Below, in pieces: positions 1 through 7,450 of a stretch of 15,200 nt of DNA. The stretch is from the NCBI GenBank assembly GCA_031266095.1, contig JAISBR010000053.1, positions 1 to 15,200 of the forward strand, in the 5' to 3' direction. This DNA comes from Treponema sp. (GTDB lineage: Bacteria > Spirochaetota > Spirochaetia > Treponematales > Breznakiellaceae). Under the pieces are notes generated by a model. That model was not told the origin of the DNA, did not search any database, and worked only from the letters and a program-made list of their open reading frames with translations. The translations under genes and the position numbers were made by a program. Every line of letters starts with the position of its first letter. The first letter of the stretch is position 1.

Positions 1-3
1 ACT

Positions 4-19
4 ATGCGCTAAAGCGCAT
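4..19. repeat. Short perfect hairpin at window edge
   Basis: ATGCGCT (4-10) and AGCGCAT (13-19) are perfect inverted repeats separated by two bases. The element sits next to a solitary arm of the dispersed hairpin family and downstream of the toxin gene on the minus strand. It has no T-tract on either side, so a simple intrinsic terminator is not supported. Confidence 0.6.
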
Positions 20-21
20 GG

Positions 22-36
22 TTTTGGAACAAGCTC
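22..36 (-). repeat. Solitary arm of the dispersed 15-nt hairpin family
   Basis: Read on the minus strand, this is GAGCTTGTTCCAAAA, closely matching the arm GAGGCTGTTCCAAAA of the copy at 82-118. No matching partner arm lies at the usual 7-9-nt distance. Ten bases (22-31) can instead pair with 87-96, which would enclose the 63-76 palindrome in a larger branched structure. It may be a decayed or rearranged copy. Confidence 0.5.
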
Positions 37-58
37 TTGCGGTTTTTCGGCCTACGTC

Positions 59-388
59 CTACAAAACCGCGGTTTTTAAAGGAAGCTGTTCCAAAAACTG
101 AAGTTTTGGAACAGCCTCATCTTTCTCACTGATGTTTGCCCTGACCGATTTCGCAAATCCGTATACATAAAATGTCCGCTCGCCGCTCTTAAAGAACACG
201 ATCACCCGGTAACCACCCGATTTTCCCTTGCCGGGTCGGGCAAGGCGCACCTTGTAGACCCCGCCGCCAAGATTGGCCGCCGGTTGCCCCGTCTCAAGCA
301 CGTCGTTGACTATGGCCTTGAGTTCACCGTCCGTTATGCCCTCTTTGGCGGCAAACCGGGCGAACCACATATTCTTGAATACCCTCAC
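59..388 (-). CDS. RelE/HigB-type toxin with repeat-derived C-terminus
   Basis: This 109-residue protein belongs to the type II toxin-antitoxin RelE-like toxins of the PF06296 type, whose characterised relatives inhibit translation by cleaving mRNA. Visible family features are the start MRVFKNMWFARFA, the glycine-rich turn near residues 41-43, the RPGKGKSGGYRVIVFF core (about 51-66) and FYVYGFAKS (about 73-81). The start is GTG at 388, because the conserved N-terminus begins there; no Shine-Dalgarno sequence precedes it. Residues up to about 91 fit the family. Residues 92-109 are encoded by the palindromic repeat at 82-118 and neighbouring palindrome DNA, replacing the usual charged and leucine-rich final helix. 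No antitoxin gene is visible in the remaining 58 bases downstream or upstream. It may be an inactivated, orphaned or altered toxin. Family assignment is by recognition and fairly sure; activity is unknown. Confidence 0.75.
   Translation of the reverse strand: MRVFKNMWFARFAAKEGITDGELKAIVNDVLETGQPAANLGGGVYKVRLARPGKGKSGGYRVIVFFKSGERTFYVYGFAKSVRANISEKDEAVPKLQFLEQLPLKTAVL
63..76. repeat. Perfect 14-bp palindrome AAAACCGCGGTTTT
   Basis: The sequence AAAACCGCGGTTTT is self-complementary. Its left half (63-70) can also pair with GCGGTTTT at 39-46, so alternative foldings exist. It overlaps the last codons and stop of the toxin ORF on the minus strand (stop at 59-61) and belongs to the palindrome cluster that covers 1-118. 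Confidence 0.6.
82..118. repeat. Dispersed hairpin repeat, copy 1 (inside toxin ORF)
   Basis: The arms 82-96 (GAAGCTGTTCCAAAA) and 104-118 (TTTTGGAACAGCCTC) pair at 14 of 15 positions around a 7-nt loop (97-103). Copies of the same design lie at 11045-11081 and 12420-12458. The repeat begins exactly where the toxin ORF departs from the usual sequence of its family, so it supplies the toxin's coding C-terminus, read on the minus strand. Confidence 0.7.
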
Positions 389-394
389 TTATAA

Positions 395-423
395 ACAATA
401 AGCAAAAAACAGGCGGATTACAA
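395..423 (-). promoter_or_regulatory. Candidate leaderless promoter for the toxin gene
   Basis: On the minus strand, TTGTAA (423-418) and TATTGT (400-395) are separated by 17 bp. Six bases lie between the -10 box and the GTG at 388, so transcription would begin at or next to the start codon. Both boxes match the consensus at four of six positions, so this is only a candidate. Confidence 0.35.
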
Positions 424-527
424 GCTCGGTCTTTCGCGTATAACGCGCGATTTCCCCATAAATAGTTCATTCGGGCTATTCGCCGCCTTAAAGGAGCGGC
501 CGGCCTCAGGGTTTTTCGCGATTTTTC

Positions 528-557
528 TTGCGTAAAATCCACGTGAGGCGGTATAGT
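528..557 (+). promoter_or_regulatory. Candidate leaderless promoter for the NDK-like gene
   Basis: TTGCGT (528-533) and TATAGT (552-557) are separated by 18 bp. Six bases separate the -10 box from ATG at 564, which places the expected transcription start at or within a base of the start codon. The nearest purine-rich match, GAGG at 545-548, is upstream of the -10 and would not be in the transcript. Confidence 0.5.
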
Positions 558-563
558 AGTACA

Positions 564-1751
564 ATGACTGTATCTTTATCTTATGTGTTGGTGACTCCCT
601 ACACTATAGCGAAAAGCAGAACCGGCGGGGTCCTTTCCCGGCTGCTGTCAAGAACCGATCTTGAACTGGTGGGCGCCCAGATATTTGCCCCGGACGAGGC
701 TTTTGCCAGGGGATACGCCGGCAGTTTACGGCAGCGATCTCCGCAGAATCAGATCATGCTTATCGCTGATTACGTGGAGCAGAATATTTCCCCTTCCGGC
801 GGAAGGCCGCACCGCTCGCTGCTGCTCCTGTTCCGGGGGGAAAATCCCTGCGAAAAACTGCTTGCCGCCTGCGGCCATATATACACCCAGCATGTGGGAG
901 TGGACGCGCTGTCAGGTGAAACAATCCGGGATACTTACGCGGACCTGATATTTTCCAAGGACAATCCCGATGAGGTGAGTTATTTTGAGCCCGCGGTGCT
1001 GACTCCGCGCCATCAGGAAGAAGCGGACCAGGACCTCATGCACATGGCGCGTTTTCTTAAGGGCAGGGAAAACATCATCCAGAATATTACCTATTCTGAT
1101 CCTTCGCACATTGAGCAGACGCTGGTGATCCTTAAACCCGACAACTGGAAGCACAATTCATCCCGGCCGGGGACTATTATCGACATGTTTTCCCGTACCG
1201 GCTTACGCGTCATCGGTGTCAAGGTTCACCGTTTTTCCCTGGCGGAAGCCCTGGATTTTTACGGCCCGGTAGAGGCGGTGCTTAAGGAGAAACTGGCCGC
1301 CAATTTCGGCAGGCGGGCCAGGGAACTATTGGAAAAGGAATTTAACTTCAGGCTGGACGAGGAATCGGCAAAGCTTCTCTCCGTTAATTTCGGGAACGAA
1401 TGCGCAAAAGATCAGTTTGCCCAGATTGTGGAATTCATGTCCGGTAAACGGCCGGGGAGCTGTCCGCCGGAGGAGATGAAAAAGCCCGGCGATGTAAAGT
1501 GCATGATCCTTATCTATGAAGGCGAAGACGCGGTAAAAAAAATCCGGGATGTGCTGGGCCCCACCGATCCGCTCAAGGCGCCGGACGGCACGGTACGCCG
1601 GGAATTCGGCAGCAATGTGATGATTAATACCGCTCATGCCTCGGACTCCCGTGAGAGCTATGAACGGGAAAGGGTCATTGTCAGAACCGGTGAAAATTCC
1701 CTCGCGTCGATAATTGAAGAATATTTAGTATCCAGTCAATGCGCTGAGTGA
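564..1751 (+). CDS. Tandem NDK-fold protein, nucleoside-diphosphate kinase-like
   Basis: The protein has 395 residues, far longer than the roughly 150 of a standard nucleoside-diphosphate kinase, which moves the gamma phosphate of NTPs to NDPs through a phosphohistidine. Two NDK-like halves are visible. The first (about 1-150) has a YVLVTPYTIAKSRTGG strand and a GETIRDTYADLIFSKDNPDE segment that parallels the GTIR...HGSD region but lacks the catalytic histidine. The second (about 184-385) begins LVILKPDNW with Lys191 and ends with GTVRREFGSN then NTAHASDSRESYERE, where His358 is the expected phosphohistidine. An extra helical insert of about 70 residues lies between the KPD strand region and the YEGEDAVKKIRD strand. 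ATG 564 is preferred over TTG 528, because homology begins at SLSYVLVTP and a candidate promoter overlaps the TTG. It is followed nine bases later by the dipeptidase gene. Kinase activity of the second half is inferred. Confidence 0.75.
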   Translation: MTVSLSYVLVTPYTIAKSRTGGVLSRLLSRTDLELVGAQIFAPDEAFARGYAGSLRQRSPQNQIMLIADYVEQNISPSGGRPHRSLLLLFRGENPCEKLLAACGHIYTQHVGVDALSGETIRDTYADLIFSKDNPDEVSYFEPAVLTPRHQEEADQDLMHMARFLKGRENIIQNITYSDPSHIEQTLVILKPDNWKHNSSRPGTIIDMFSRTGLRVIGVKVHRFSLAEALDFYGPVEAVLKEKLAANFGRRARELLEKEFNFRLDEESAKLLSVNFGNECAKDQFAQIVEFMSGKRPGSCPPEEMKKPGDVKCMILIYEGEDAVKKIRDVLGPTDPLKAPDGTVRREFGSNVMINTAHASDSRESYERERVIVRTGENSLASIIEEYLVSSQCAE

Positions 1752-2884: not shown

Positions 2885-5344
2885 ATGAGGAACAGGAATA
2901 CTAGGTGGATCGCGCTGTTTTGCATTGTGTTTTTGCACCTGCCCAATGCCGCTGTATGCGGAGGGGCGAGAGCGGCGGCGGGATCCGAAACCCGCGGACG
3001 CTATCTTGCGGGGAGGGGCGTCATTATCCCGCCGGAGGAGATATACACCGACACCTACATTGCCTCTATCAATTACAAGTATCCCCAGCCTGAGGCGGAA
3101 TTCGGGGTTTACCTCTACAACAGTACCAACCTTATGAGCCGGCGGGGGCAGGAAGGGATACTACAGATCGGTCTTCAAGGAAGGAGCGCGGCATTTGAAG
3201 AACTTCCGCCCATGAACCTTGCCTTTGTGATAGACACCTCCGATTCCATGAACGAGGAAGACAAGATAGCCTGGGTGAAGGAATCGATGGTGATTTTTAT
3301 GAATAAGGTGCGTGATGTTGATTCTCTGGCCCTGGTAAGTTTTAACGACAGCGTACAGGTGCTCTTTGAGTCGACCCGCATGGATAGTCCCCGGAAACGG
3401 CAGCGCTTTCTCAACTCGGTACAGAACCTCGCGCCCCGGGGCGGGACGGATATAGAGAAGGGCCTTGCCGCCGGATACGAACAGGTGCTGGCCAATTACC
3501 GCGCGGGTTCGGTGAACCGCGTGTTCCTTTTTTCCGACGGCACGGAGTTTTCCTCCCGGCTTAACCTTGCGGGCGCCCAGTCCGGGGAGGTACGGGTTTC
3601 CCTGCTATGGAATAACTATAACGATCTGGACCTGCATGTGGTGAACCCCCGGCAGGAGGAAATATTCTATGGCCGGCGGGACGACAGTTACGGCGGCATG
3701 CTGGATGTAGACATGAATGCCGGCGGGCGGGAAAGCAGCAAACCGGTGGAAAACATTTTTTGGGGTCCCGGTAAAACGCCCCAGGGCAAGTACCGTGTCT
3801 ATGTTCAGAATTACGCCTTTCATGAAACCAGCCGTGCTCCGACGACTTTTCAGGTAGAGATAAAAAACGGCAATGAATACAGTCATTTTGAAGGCACGGT
3901 AAGGGGGGCCGGCAGGGAAAGTAATATCGAGATTGGAACCTTTGAATACAAGGGTTCTCAGGCGTTGAAACAGGAAAAGGCTATGGTCTATCAGCTCGCC
4001 GAAACCTATAGAGCAATGGGTATCTCTGTTTCGACCCTGGGAGTGGGCCTGGGTTTTGACGTGGAACTTATGCAGACGCTGGCGGAAGAAGGGGGCGGCA
4101 GTTCCCGCTTTATCGGCAGCCGGGAGGAAATGCGGAAAACCTTTGACACGGAGTTTGAACGGATGGCGGTGCTTGTTGCCGGCGATGTAGAGATGGAACT
4201 GGAATTTATGCCCGGCGCCGAGGTATTGGAGACGTGGGGCTATCAGCATCAGATAAACGGGAATACCATTTCTTATCGTTTAACCGGCCTGCATCTGGGA
4301 GATTACGAGACCATACTGATCCGCTACCGCTTAGCCCCGCAGGGGGCGGGCAATGAAAAACAGCTTGCCGCCTTCCGCCTCTCCGCAAAGGATATTTTAG
4401 GAAAACCCATCCATATACCCGAGCGGACGATAACCATCGGGCTTTTCGACAGCCCGGTTCCGGTTGACGGTATTTCTTCCGGAATGGTTTTGTATTCGGG
4501 TACCATGATGTACTTCGCGGAAGCCCTCAAGGAGATAGGCGCGTTCTATTATGCGGGTCAGGATGATCTTAACGCCCTTTCCCAATTTGAGCGGGAAATG
4601 GGGAACCGGGAACCGTCGTCGGCTGACCGTCAACGGCTGGACGCGCTGAAAGACGCGGTTTTTTCCCGCCTGGAAACGGCGCTGCTGAAAACCAACAGCA
4701 ATAAGGCGGAACTTGAAAACGCGAAACTGCGGCTGGATGATACGGAAGCCTTTAACCACGAAATTGAGATTCTTGCCCGGTATCAGGAGATACTGGTTAA
4801 GGAGATACGTGATAACGGCGGCGTCCTGAGAAATGAAACTCCGGCCGCCGGAGAGTCCGGCGCGGACGGAGTGGCGCCGGCTGTTATTGCAGACAGCACA
4901 GCCGCGCCGCAATTGGAAGCGCTGCACGACAGGGTATCAGGACTCTTTAAGGAGATAACGCTTTCCCTGCCGGGCGGACAGCGTTCCGTTGTTGCCCTGG
5001 CGCCCTTTATTACCCGCGGCGGAGGGGAACCGCCCCTGCTTGATTTCCTCAATGAAAGCGCCTTGACAGCCCTTTCCGGCGATCCGGGGCTGCTCCTGGT
5101 GGAACGGAGCCTTCTGGACCGGGTTCGGCAGGAACAGCAGATTCAACTGGTAGAGGTGATGGACGCCGATACCGCCGTCGGTATCGGGAAGCTGCTGGGA
5201 GCGCGGTTTATCATAACCGGGCAGGTCATTCCCCTGCAGACACAGGTCATGATTTTCGGCAGGGTTATCAATGTGGAAACCGGAGAAATCGTAAGCGCCG
5301 CGCAGATCTATGTGGACCGGCAGATTGTCGGAGACTTACTGTAA
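2885..5344 (+). CDS. Exported VWA / DUF2135-like / FlgO-CsgG-like multidomain protein
   Basis: The protein has 819 residues. A basic N-terminus and hydrophobic stretch (about 8-19) indicate export. Cleavage is probably in the GGARAAAGS region; Cys25 is preceded by NAAV, a poor lipobox. The first part of a von Willebrand A domain follows, with the MIDAS motif Asp117-x-Ser119-x-Ser121, Thr188 in GGTDIEKG and Asp218 in LFSDG. At about 233-350 a DUF2135-like beta domain (the type in E. coli YfaP) is inserted, with DLDLHVVNP, GGMLDVD and GKYRVYVQNY. The VWA fold then resumes at about 362-435 (MGISVSTLGVGLGFD and following). A beta-rich segment (435-545) and a helical region (545-690) lead to a FlgO/CsgG-like domain (about 702-815: VVALAPF, LLLVERSLLDRV, GARFIITGQV). 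Metal-dependent adhesion or scaffolding at the cell surface or periplasm is inferred; the exact function is unknown. Confidence 0.8.
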   Translation: MRNRNTRWIALFCIVFLHLPNAAVCGGARAAAGSETRGRYLAGRGVIIPPEEIYTDTYIASINYKYPQPEAEFGVYLYNSTNLMSRRGQEGILQIGLQGRSAAFEELPPMNLAFVIDTSDSMNEEDKIAWVKESMVIFMNKVRDVDSLALVSFNDSVQVLFESTRMDSPRKRQRFLNSVQNLAPRGGTDIEKGLAAGYEQVLANYRAGSVNRVFLFSDGTEFSSRLNLAGAQSGEVRVSLLWNNYNDLDLHVVNPRQEEIFYGRRDDSYGGMLDVDMNAGGRESSKPVENIFWGPGKTPQGKYRVYVQNYAFHETSRAPTTFQVEIKNGNEYSHFEGTVRGAGRESNIEIGTFEYKGSQALKQEKAMVYQLAETYRAMGISVSTLGVGLGFDVELMQTLAEEGGGSSRFIGSREEMRKTFDTEFERMAVLVAGDVEMELEFMPGAEVLETWGYQHQINGNTISYRLTGLHLGDYETILIRYRLAPQGAGNEKQLAAFRLSAKDILGKPIHIPERTITIGLFDSPVPVDGISSGMVLYSGTMMYFAEALKEIGAFYYAGQDDLNALSQFEREMGNREPSSADRQRLDALKDAVFSRLETALLKTNSNKAELENAKLRLDDTEAFNHEIEILARYQEILVKEIRDNGGVLRNETPAAGESGADGVAPAVIADSTAAPQLEALHDRVSGLFKEITLSLPGGQRSVVALAPFITRGGGEPPLLDFLNESALTALSGDPGLLLVERSLLDRVRQEQQIQLVEVMDADTAVGIGKLLGARFIITGQVIPLQTQVMIFGRVINVETGEIVSAAQIYVDRQIVGDLL

Positions 5345-6698: not shown

Positions 6699-6788
6699 TA
6701 CCGGGGCTATACCCGGAAAGACTGTGAGGAAATATGTCCCGCGCCACGGTATGGCGCTATGGTACTATTGGACAAAACGGCTCTGCCA

Positions 6789-6820
6789 GCAGTTTGCTGC
6801 GCTTCGCGCTTACAAACTGC
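6789..6820. terminator. Two-tier hairpin after the hydro-lyase operon
   Basis: GCAGTTTG (6789-6796) pairs with CAAACTGC (6813-6820). Inside it, GCGC (6799-6802) pairs with GCGC (6806-6809) around a three-base loop. It lies about 30 bp beyond the stop of the minus-strand beta-subunit gene. No run of T follows on the minus strand, so a role in ending or stabilising that transcript is only plausible. Confidence 0.35.
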
Positions 6821-6850
6821 GTCGAACCGAAGGTTTGCGGGAGCCCGGTA

Positions 6851-7450
6851 CTAAAATCGGAGGCTTTCAATAATCGGAGCCATGCAGGCATCACGGCGCG
6901 AGGCGTAGTGGGCGGCGTTTTCGGTGAACATGTTGTTTCCCATGGTATCGATGCTCACAATCAGAGGGCCGAATTCGCGGACCCGCATCACCCAGAGGCA
7001 CTCGGGCATGCCCAGTTCCCGCCAGAAGACGTTCTCGATATTTTCAACCTGGCCCGCGCCCAGGACCGCGCAGCCGCCGGGATACACGCAATGGAGGACC
7101 TTGTGCTCCCGGCAGCCCGCAGCGGTTTTGTTCCCCATGCCGCCTTTCCCTATCATCATTTTAATGCCGGTCCGCGCCATAAAATCCGGGGCATATTCCT
7201 CCATGCGGCTTGATGTGGTGGGGCCTACGGAGATTAACTCGTAAGACGGAGGATTTTCCCTGACAATAGGGCCGGCGTGGAAAATGGCGATACCCTTAAG
7301 ATCGGCGGGACATTCCATCCCCTCCCGCAGTATCCGGCGGTGTACAGCGTCCCTGCCGGTAACCAGGATCCCTGAAAGGAATACAATGTCCCCAATTCGC
7401 AGATCCGTGATGTCGGTGTCGCGTAACCGAGTGTGAAGGAGCCGGGTCAC
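6851..7450 (-). CDS. Fe-S hydro-lyase beta subunit (tartrate dehydratase/fumarase type)
   Basis: This 199-residue protein is the small subunit of a two-subunit class I hydro-lyase, closely resembling E. coli TtdB as remembered. Key segments are RIGDIVFLSGILVTGRD, the AIFHAGPIVRE block, SVGPTTSSRME, GIKMMIGKGGMG, GCAVLGAGQVE, and ELGMPECLWVMRVREFGPLIVSIDTMGNN. In this family the beta subunit supplies the swivelling substrate-binding domain, and the alpha subunit carries the [4Fe-4S] cluster. The start is GTG at 7450, overlapping the alpha stop by four bases (GTGA), a sign of translational coupling. The substrate cannot be settled by reading: L-tartrate, fumarate/malate and related hydroxy acids are all possible. 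The neighbouring argH, whose product is fumarate, favours fumarase. Confidence 0.85.
   Translation of the reverse strand: MTRLLHTRLRDTDITDLRIGDIVFLSGILVTGRDAVHRRILREGMECPADLKGIAIFHAGPIVRENPPSYELISVGPTTSSRMEEYAPDFMARTGIKMMIGKGGMGNKTAAGCREHKVLHCVYPGGCAVLGAGQVENIENVFWRELGMPECLWVMRVREFGPLIVSIDTMGNNMFTENAAHYASRRDACMAPIIESLRF

Follow-up and report, generated by a model that had tools for sequence, protein, structure and literature searches.

In a 15,200-nucleotide stretch of DNA from Treponema sp. (the window; GCA_031266095.1, contig JAISBR010000053.1), the gene at positions 2885-5344 of the forward strand encodes a protein of 819 amino acids, here called P0001, in which a complete beta-sandwich domain is nested inside a von Willebrand factor A (VWA) fold. 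Computation established this nesting, the conservation of the residues of the metal-ion-dependent adhesion site (MIDAS) and of the insert, and the portability of the insert. Export, calcium binding, lid action, docking and a cellular role of P0001 are proposed on this basis; that the protein is, as a whole, an exported VWA binding protein of spirochaetes with a TerD-like calcium domain as lid and a C-terminal docking domain is in our estimation an evenly balanced question.

A complete domain nested in the VWA fold

The reading frame extends from an ATG at position 2885 to a stop codon at 5342-5344 (819 codons). Because a GGAGG ribosome-binding site (2875-2879) is located 5 bases 5' of the ATG and 205 relatives exist, it is a real gene. 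These relatives were obtained in a protein search with P0001 (E ≤ 1e-3, among the candidates scored); in the best 120, which were listed, all relatives named by organism are spirochaetes (Treponema, Spirochaetia, Spirochaetales). Their source names, 'Ca-activated chloride channel family protein' or 'VWA domain-containing protein', are automatic labels. Conservation was read from an alignment of 62 rows, made up of P0001 itself plus 61 sequences from the 120 listed, fragments and many close copies having been removed by hand; the top match is 98% identical to P0001, the other aligned rows 40-83%.

The VWA family of Pfam matches residues 111-221 (52.2 bits; cut-off 23.8). The first part of the VWA domain (residues 105-222, positions 3197-3550) holds the MIDAS residues D117 (62/62 rows), S119 (61/62), S121 (60/62), T188 (S or T in 49/62) and D218 (61/62). 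In the AlphaFold2 model (mean predicted local distance difference test score, pLDDT, 85.7; insert alone 91.8) strand 4 of this domain (210-217) ends in the MIDAS motif SDG. The insert (residues 223-356, positions 3551-3952) begins about five residues past D218 with its beta-sandwich at 236-355, and is followed by helix 5 (357-377) and strand 5 (381-387), with which the second part of the VWA domain (residues 357-428, positions 3953-4168) resumes. In two natural insert-free spirochaete relatives, L086 (496 amino acids, without CsgG or FlgO matches) and L087 (578 amino acids, with both; the contig starts close to the gene), a TDG motif leads straight into helix 5. The order in the model together with these relatives confirms the nesting, which had been claimed in the original prediction, made from the sequence alone. 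Its description of an interaction domain that depends on a metal and bears a further domain on a loop is likewise in agreement with the conserved MIDAS residues and the model, metal dependence being predicted.

The place of the insertion is known from tip pilins. According to PMC7835359, the insertion ARM2 of Mfa5 from Porphyromonas gingivalis (residues 257-355) lies behind the MIDAS aspartate D252, with VWA strand 4 before it and a helix after it, contains a modelled calcium and helps to form a lid over the MIDAS, and the ARM2 insertions at that place in RrgA and GBS104 of streptococci are described there as metal-free. These proteins share with P0001 a MIDAS-bearing VWA domain with a long insertion right after the strand-4 aspartate. 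However, ARM2 of Mfa5 is described in the same source as three very short strands surrounded by long loops, whereas the insertion of P0001 is a whole nine-stranded portable domain. In PilB of S. sanguinis two arms flank the MIDAS, the second being a four-stranded sheet (PMC8179133). The earlier statement that nothing characterised is comparable thus does not hold at the level of the VWA domain; new is that the inserted domain is widespread, TerD-like and was taken up by two or more VWA lineages independently of each other. Further known proteins close to P0001 are 4fx5 (a Catenulispora VWA protein), ArnAB, the Sec23/24 core and inter-alpha-inhibitor heavy chain 1; the structure matches to 4fx5 and ArnB (8s05_B) align within residues 70-641 of P0001.

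In a tree of 35 proteins calculated with the insert removed, presence of the insert changes four times, at least three of these changes being forced by well-supported branches, so the insert has been repeatedly gained or lost in the spirochaete family. Some match to P0001 was found in 183 of 392 sampled Spirochaetota genomes, the listed rows showing mostly the VWA or the CsgG part alone, and the insert-bearing form in at least seven (G003, G058, G314, G216, G377, G299 and G072); with no more than two candidates scored in each genome, these counts are lower bounds. In G072 the insert is shortened: two tandem paralogs are encoded on the reverse strand of locus L101 (188-1348 and 1477-3504), one insert-free with a CsgG-type end and the other with an insert cut to about half, which looks as if the insert were being lost.

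Conserved residues and distribution of the inserted domain

The residues N244, D247, D249, D274, D276, N278, E289 and N290 of the insert are present in all 62 rows, and its acidic residues are more strictly kept than those of the MIDAS. A wider set of 114 non-redundant copies was obtained by thinning 415 domain rows (with duplicates) at 80% identity. In this set D247, D249, D274, D276, N278 and E289 occur in 114 of 114 copies, N244 and N290 in 113 and N246 in 112. The eight invariant or nearly invariant asparagine, aspartate and glutamate residues are probably metal ligands, and the metal would be calcium.

When a collection of species genomes was scanned with P0001, 149 stretches encoding a relative were detected, the best 80 of which gave 79 loci. 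Four of these (L001-L004) encode full-length spirochaete relatives; in the other 75 the listed matched residues lie within 188-403, mainly 220-340. Among the carriers of the domain are Poseidoniales archaea, whose one or two copies come without a VWA match in this comparison. The domain is likewise present in Armatimonadota (L010, L023, L028), Gemmatales (L005) and Coprothermobacterota (L012). Copies in marine archaea and in these three bacterial groups are about 40-50% identical to the insert, those in phages near 40%. Among 50,697 phage records 403 contain a match to the insert (E ≤ 1e-5), which spans at least 80% of its length in 101 cases; PHROG 1735 and PHROG 23228 match it as well, and by fold the top viral match is a protein of a Cellulophaga phage (TM score 0.71 on the query). 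Plasmid records matched in 14 of 72,556 cases. The insert is thus a portable, widespread domain of bacteria, archaea and phages.

Two of the phage proteins with the domain (L080, 3663-5774, and L143, 2771-4801, both forward strand) comprise about 680-700 residues and have no assigned function; the former matches PHROG 1735 over its length. On a Cereibacter plasmid (L125, 7131-8399, forward strand) the domain ends a hypothetical protein encoded directly before srfB/srfC-type genes, and a vWA gene is located downstream.

The likeness of the insert to DUF2135, also part of the original prediction, was borne out through relatives. In P0001 the Pfam model PF09906 (DUF2135/YfaP family), which spans 48 positions, matches residues 299-326 below its cut-off (17.2 bits vs 22); the cut-off was passed by one of 12 domain-bearing proteins scanned, the relative L009 (27.7 bits), and many archaeal relatives among the listed matches of the L012 search carry the DUF2135 label. 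No paper on DUF2135 was found in the open-licence literature, and the wider claim of an undescribed architecture is not made here; yfaP is used as a strain marker in PMC8117528. No solved structure was found as a sequence relative of the insert at E ≤ 5, and the PADLOC models of defence systems gave no match for the three proteins tried.

Possible relationship of the insert to TerD

A fold search returned TerD proteins as the nearest solved folds of the insert, and this likeness includes the calcium-binding Klebsiella TerD (2kxt). P0001 differs in giving no match to Pfam TerD (PF02342) at E ≤ 0.1, and profile comparison was only suggestive. A 32-row insert profile, hand-picked from domain-holding loci (86 open reading frames, duplicates included) and run without controls, reached a probability of 50% against eight TerD-type sequences (P 1.7e-4) and 22.5% when the halves of TerA were added (P 9.3e-4). 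With the 114-row profile the values were 14.5% (P 1.9e-3) and 10.8% (P 2.8e-3). As controls, the 114-row profile was compared with segments of the neighbouring sandwich, CsgG and VWA regions and with reversed TerD profiles (P 0.03-0.25), and those segments were compared with TerD (P 0.26-0.36). A single TerD sequence (probability 0.3%) and the C-terminal halves of TerA gave no signal against the insert profile. In the alignment of the insert and TerD profiles the W, DLD, D..N and E motifs are collinear. Taken together, the profiles point weakly to a kinship with TerD.

TerD genes were found in 0 of 5 and 0 of 10 genomes of relatives, and therefore co-occurrence does not support a link to a ter system. 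In one ter cluster a protein annotated as VWA starts with what reads by eye as a TerD-type sequence; we take this protein to be TerF. The Ter systems have reportedly been reviewed by Anantharaman and colleagues in 2012. In the open-licence literature no paper joining TerD, calcium binding, tellurite resistance and von Willebrand was found.

Insertion of the domain into other VWA lineages

The protein of locus L012 is a VWA protein of the YegL type in which the domain is nested in a different loop than in P0001. A search with it gave 5177 proteins, and the 120 listed include a set of similar length and architecture, among them P0129 of Herpetosiphon. In the YegL-like group, picked from P0122-P0168 at a length under 400 residues, the domain is present in 40 of 40 proteins vs none of eight hand-picked insert-free sisters. 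Like P0001, these proteins carry the domain within the VWA fold beside the MIDAS; they differ in the loop used, have no CsgG match and, by eye, no signal peptide. Once the inserts are removed, the VWA profile of the spirochaetes can be aligned with that of the YegL-like group (probability 80.7%, E 1.3e-5). The junction lies past SDGTEF in the spirochaetes; in the YegL-like proteins it lies ahead of GGGNTDMG, which is the MIDAS threonine loop. In a tree of 47 inserts those of the spirochaetes form one clade (support 99/93). A branch with support 100/99 has this clade, the inserts of a 480-residue group and one phage row on a long branch on one side, and the YegL-like, archaeal and remaining bacterial inserts on the other; support for a grouping of the YegL-like inserts is lower (89/92). 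Because the junction sites differ and the insert tree separates both groups, two independent insertions beside the MIDAS are well supported for these VWA lineages. The gene of the YegL-like protein in L012 adjoins a PP2C phosphatase gene (1-828, forward strand).

A third group (L106; picked from P0243-P0362 at a length over 430 residues) holds the domain in 118 of 118 members. Here it comes after a segment that, judged by eye, would be VWA strand 5, a reading that rests on the order of motifs and on the name of P0300, 'VWFA domain-containing protein'; profile comparison of the N-terminus with VWA gave probabilities of 0.5% and 0.1%, and L106 and L111 showed no Pfam VWA match, which leaves the fold unconfirmed by either.

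Tentatively, and with rather less confidence than in the reading of P0001 itself, these groups might reflect a recurring two-metal unit: a portable TerD-type calcium domain that became inserted independently in unrelated VWA proteins, each time in another loop on the MIDAS side (behind loop 3 in spirochaetes, before loop 2 in the YegL-like group and possibly after strand 5 in the 480-residue family), and that gates or shapes the MIDAS. If so, TerF, in which TerD and VWA are fused, would show this partnership without nesting.

The C-terminal domain and the remaining parts of P0001

The chain ends in an alpha-beta domain of the CsgG/FlgO/LpoB type (residues 677-818, positions 4913-5338), as had been predicted. 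CsgG (PF03783) matches residues 737-811 with 26.4 bits (cut-off 20.8), whereas FlgO (PF17680; 18.0 bits vs 22.6) and LpoB (14.9 vs 22.3) stay below their cut-offs; FlgO is passed by the insert-free relative L087 (28.7 bits). The match covers positions 55-131 of the 210 of the CsgG profile; positions 132-210 are unmatched, and the chain ends eight residues past the match, at residue 819. The later part of the profile represents the membrane segments of the export channel. Compared with the outer-membrane lipoproteins CsgG, FlgO and LpoB, with which it shares this domain family, P0001 lacks a lipobox and the second part of the CsgG profile, and its domain is fused behind a VWA protein. A CsgG-type channel was ruled out for P0001 by the partial profile coverage and the missing lipobox.

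At the other end, residues 1-26 (positions 2885-2962, boundary set by eye; helix 2-23 in the model) resemble a signal peptide without lipobox. Such a hydrophobic N-terminus is present in 58 of 62 aligned rows, and a lipobox-like motif in one, which is not P0001. Strands within residues 73-99 (positions 3101-3181) precede the VWA domain and may pack on the beta-sandwich that follows it (residues 429-525, positions 4169-4459); a helical region (residues 533-643, positions 4481-4813) comes next in the model.

The C-terminal part is not common to all relatives: L093, L132, L133, L134 and L135 have no match past about residue 652, and a Pfam scan of L133 gave no CsgG. An FGE-sulfatase (SUMF1-like) domain gene lies directly upstream of L093, L132 and L133, in three genomes (Pfam on L093, BLAST for the others).

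Fifteen related loci were compared, several of them short or ending near the gene (L003 just after it) and some holding insert-free relatives. In L001 and L002 the gene directly upstream matches the C-terminal domain of P0001 and, judged by eye, has a lipobox; that of L001 (scanned as L088) matched CsgG and LpoB (PF13036; 33.4 bits vs 22.3) in Pfam. No match to this lipoprotein-like gene was found in the other 13 loci. Near the VWA gene of L001 and L002 three paralogous LPG_synthase_C-type genes are also located (Pfam for one gene each, BLAST for the rest).

Proposed function and alternative explanations

P0001 would be a binding protein that spirochaetes export, most likely to the periplasm or the cell surface, and whose VWA domain binds a protein ligand via a divalent metal in the MIDAS. 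The TerD-like domain, with its own probable calcium site, sits directly after the third MIDAS loop (D218). Since this is the place of the ARM2 lid of Mfa5, RrgA and GBS104, the insert is most likely a lid or the second half of a binding cleft: calcium would keep it in shape, and the domain would decide what reaches the MIDAS and thereby the specificity. The C-terminal domain most likely serves self-assembly or docking on a related envelope lipoprotein. Of the earlier idea of a surface or periplasmic assembly protein, the location is in line with the signal-peptide-like N-terminus, but a secretion or flagellar role is not supported, the CsgG match being confined to positions 55-131 of 210 and the chain ending eight residues past it.

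Several observations weigh against this reading. In 13 of 62 rows position 188 carries a residue other than S or T. The linker 221-231 has a pLDDT below 50, so the model does not fix the orientation of the insert relative to the MIDAS and the insert may swing free of it. The profile match to TerD is weak, and with the broader insert profile it dropped. Since the insert comes and goes on the tree, the VWA domain can do without it. Finally, neither the window nor L003, which is the closest among the relatives with a locus, has the lipoprotein-like neighbour.

The same low-confidence linker, the interleaving of insert-free and insert-bearing members on the tree and the occurrence of the domain without a VWA match in archaea and Armatimonadota would also fit a passive passenger, that is, a stable domain tolerated in a surface loop and acting, if at all, independently of the MIDAS, for instance as a second adhesive or sugar-binding head. 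We regard this as unlikely, though it is the most serious alternative: the two different insertion sites both adjoin MIDAS residues (after loop 3 and just before the GGGNTDMG loop), and the acidic residues of the insert are under the stricter conservation described above.

A role in which the LpoB/CsgG/FlgO-type domain activates a synthase or a ring complex, with the VWA domain and its insert only sensing calcium or a partner, would make P0001 a regulator of envelope or peptidoglycan synthesis. The LpoB match upstream of the L001 gene, the LPG_synthase_C-type paralogs in L001 and L002 and an M19 dipeptidase gene directly upstream in the window speak for it. LpoB itself, however, fails in P0001, relatives without the C-terminal part exist and the neighbours are not conserved, which makes this explanation improbable.

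Bacterial VWA proteins commonly pair with MoxR ATPases (PMC7159879, PMC9976466 and PMC13036017), but a co-chaperone of a MoxR-type ATPase is very hard to reconcile with the signal-peptide-like N-terminus, and no such ATPase was present among the nine other window proteins and ten neighbours from related loci that were scanned. Equally far-fetched is a component of a secretion channel or flagellar ring in the sense of CsgG or FlgO, for which the Pfam CsgG match above cut-off could be quoted, since no room is left for the later profile part, 61 of 62 rows have no lipobox-like motif, and a channel function is already contradicted.

With these results the loose observation of a split VWA domain turns into a testable rule: the same small domain with acidic motifs has been placed beside a VWA metal site more than once. 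If the insert is a relative of TerD, it would connect exported VWA binding proteins to the poorly understood TerD and VWA proteins of stress-response clusters, and offer a single domain for measuring binding of calcium and ligand. A further point of interest is the domain itself, common in archaea, bacteria and phages and for the most part uncharacterised.

Gene surroundings

Beside P0001, the window encodes a tandem NDK-like protein (NDK, nucleoside diphosphate kinase), the M19 dipeptidase, MoeA, a fumarase, ArgH, ArgG, ArgD and a hybrid kinase. No conserved operon was found, as no window neighbour was matched in the 15 related loci except for a histidine kinase resembling the kinase of L001. 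The co-occurrence check suggested earlier thus gave no conserved neighbours, and the idea of an undescribed system finds no backing in the gene order. Fimbrial or sortase genes were not detected among the nine other window proteins scanned; marine_srt_targ (TIGR03788) reached 46.6 bits vs 551.65.

An open reading frame of 159 codons (6734-7213, forward strand) is probably spurious, because it matches no Pfam or NCBIfam family and overlaps a fumarase C-terminal-domain gene on the reverse strand (6854-7450; Fumerase_C, 139 bits). The gene at 528-1751 (forward strand) encodes a protein of 407 residues with, by eye, two tandem NDK-like domains. Matches of NCBIfam and Pfam to the second lie near residues 195-234 and 325-382 and are split by about 90 extra residues; the protein is an unusual relative of nucleoside diphosphate kinase.

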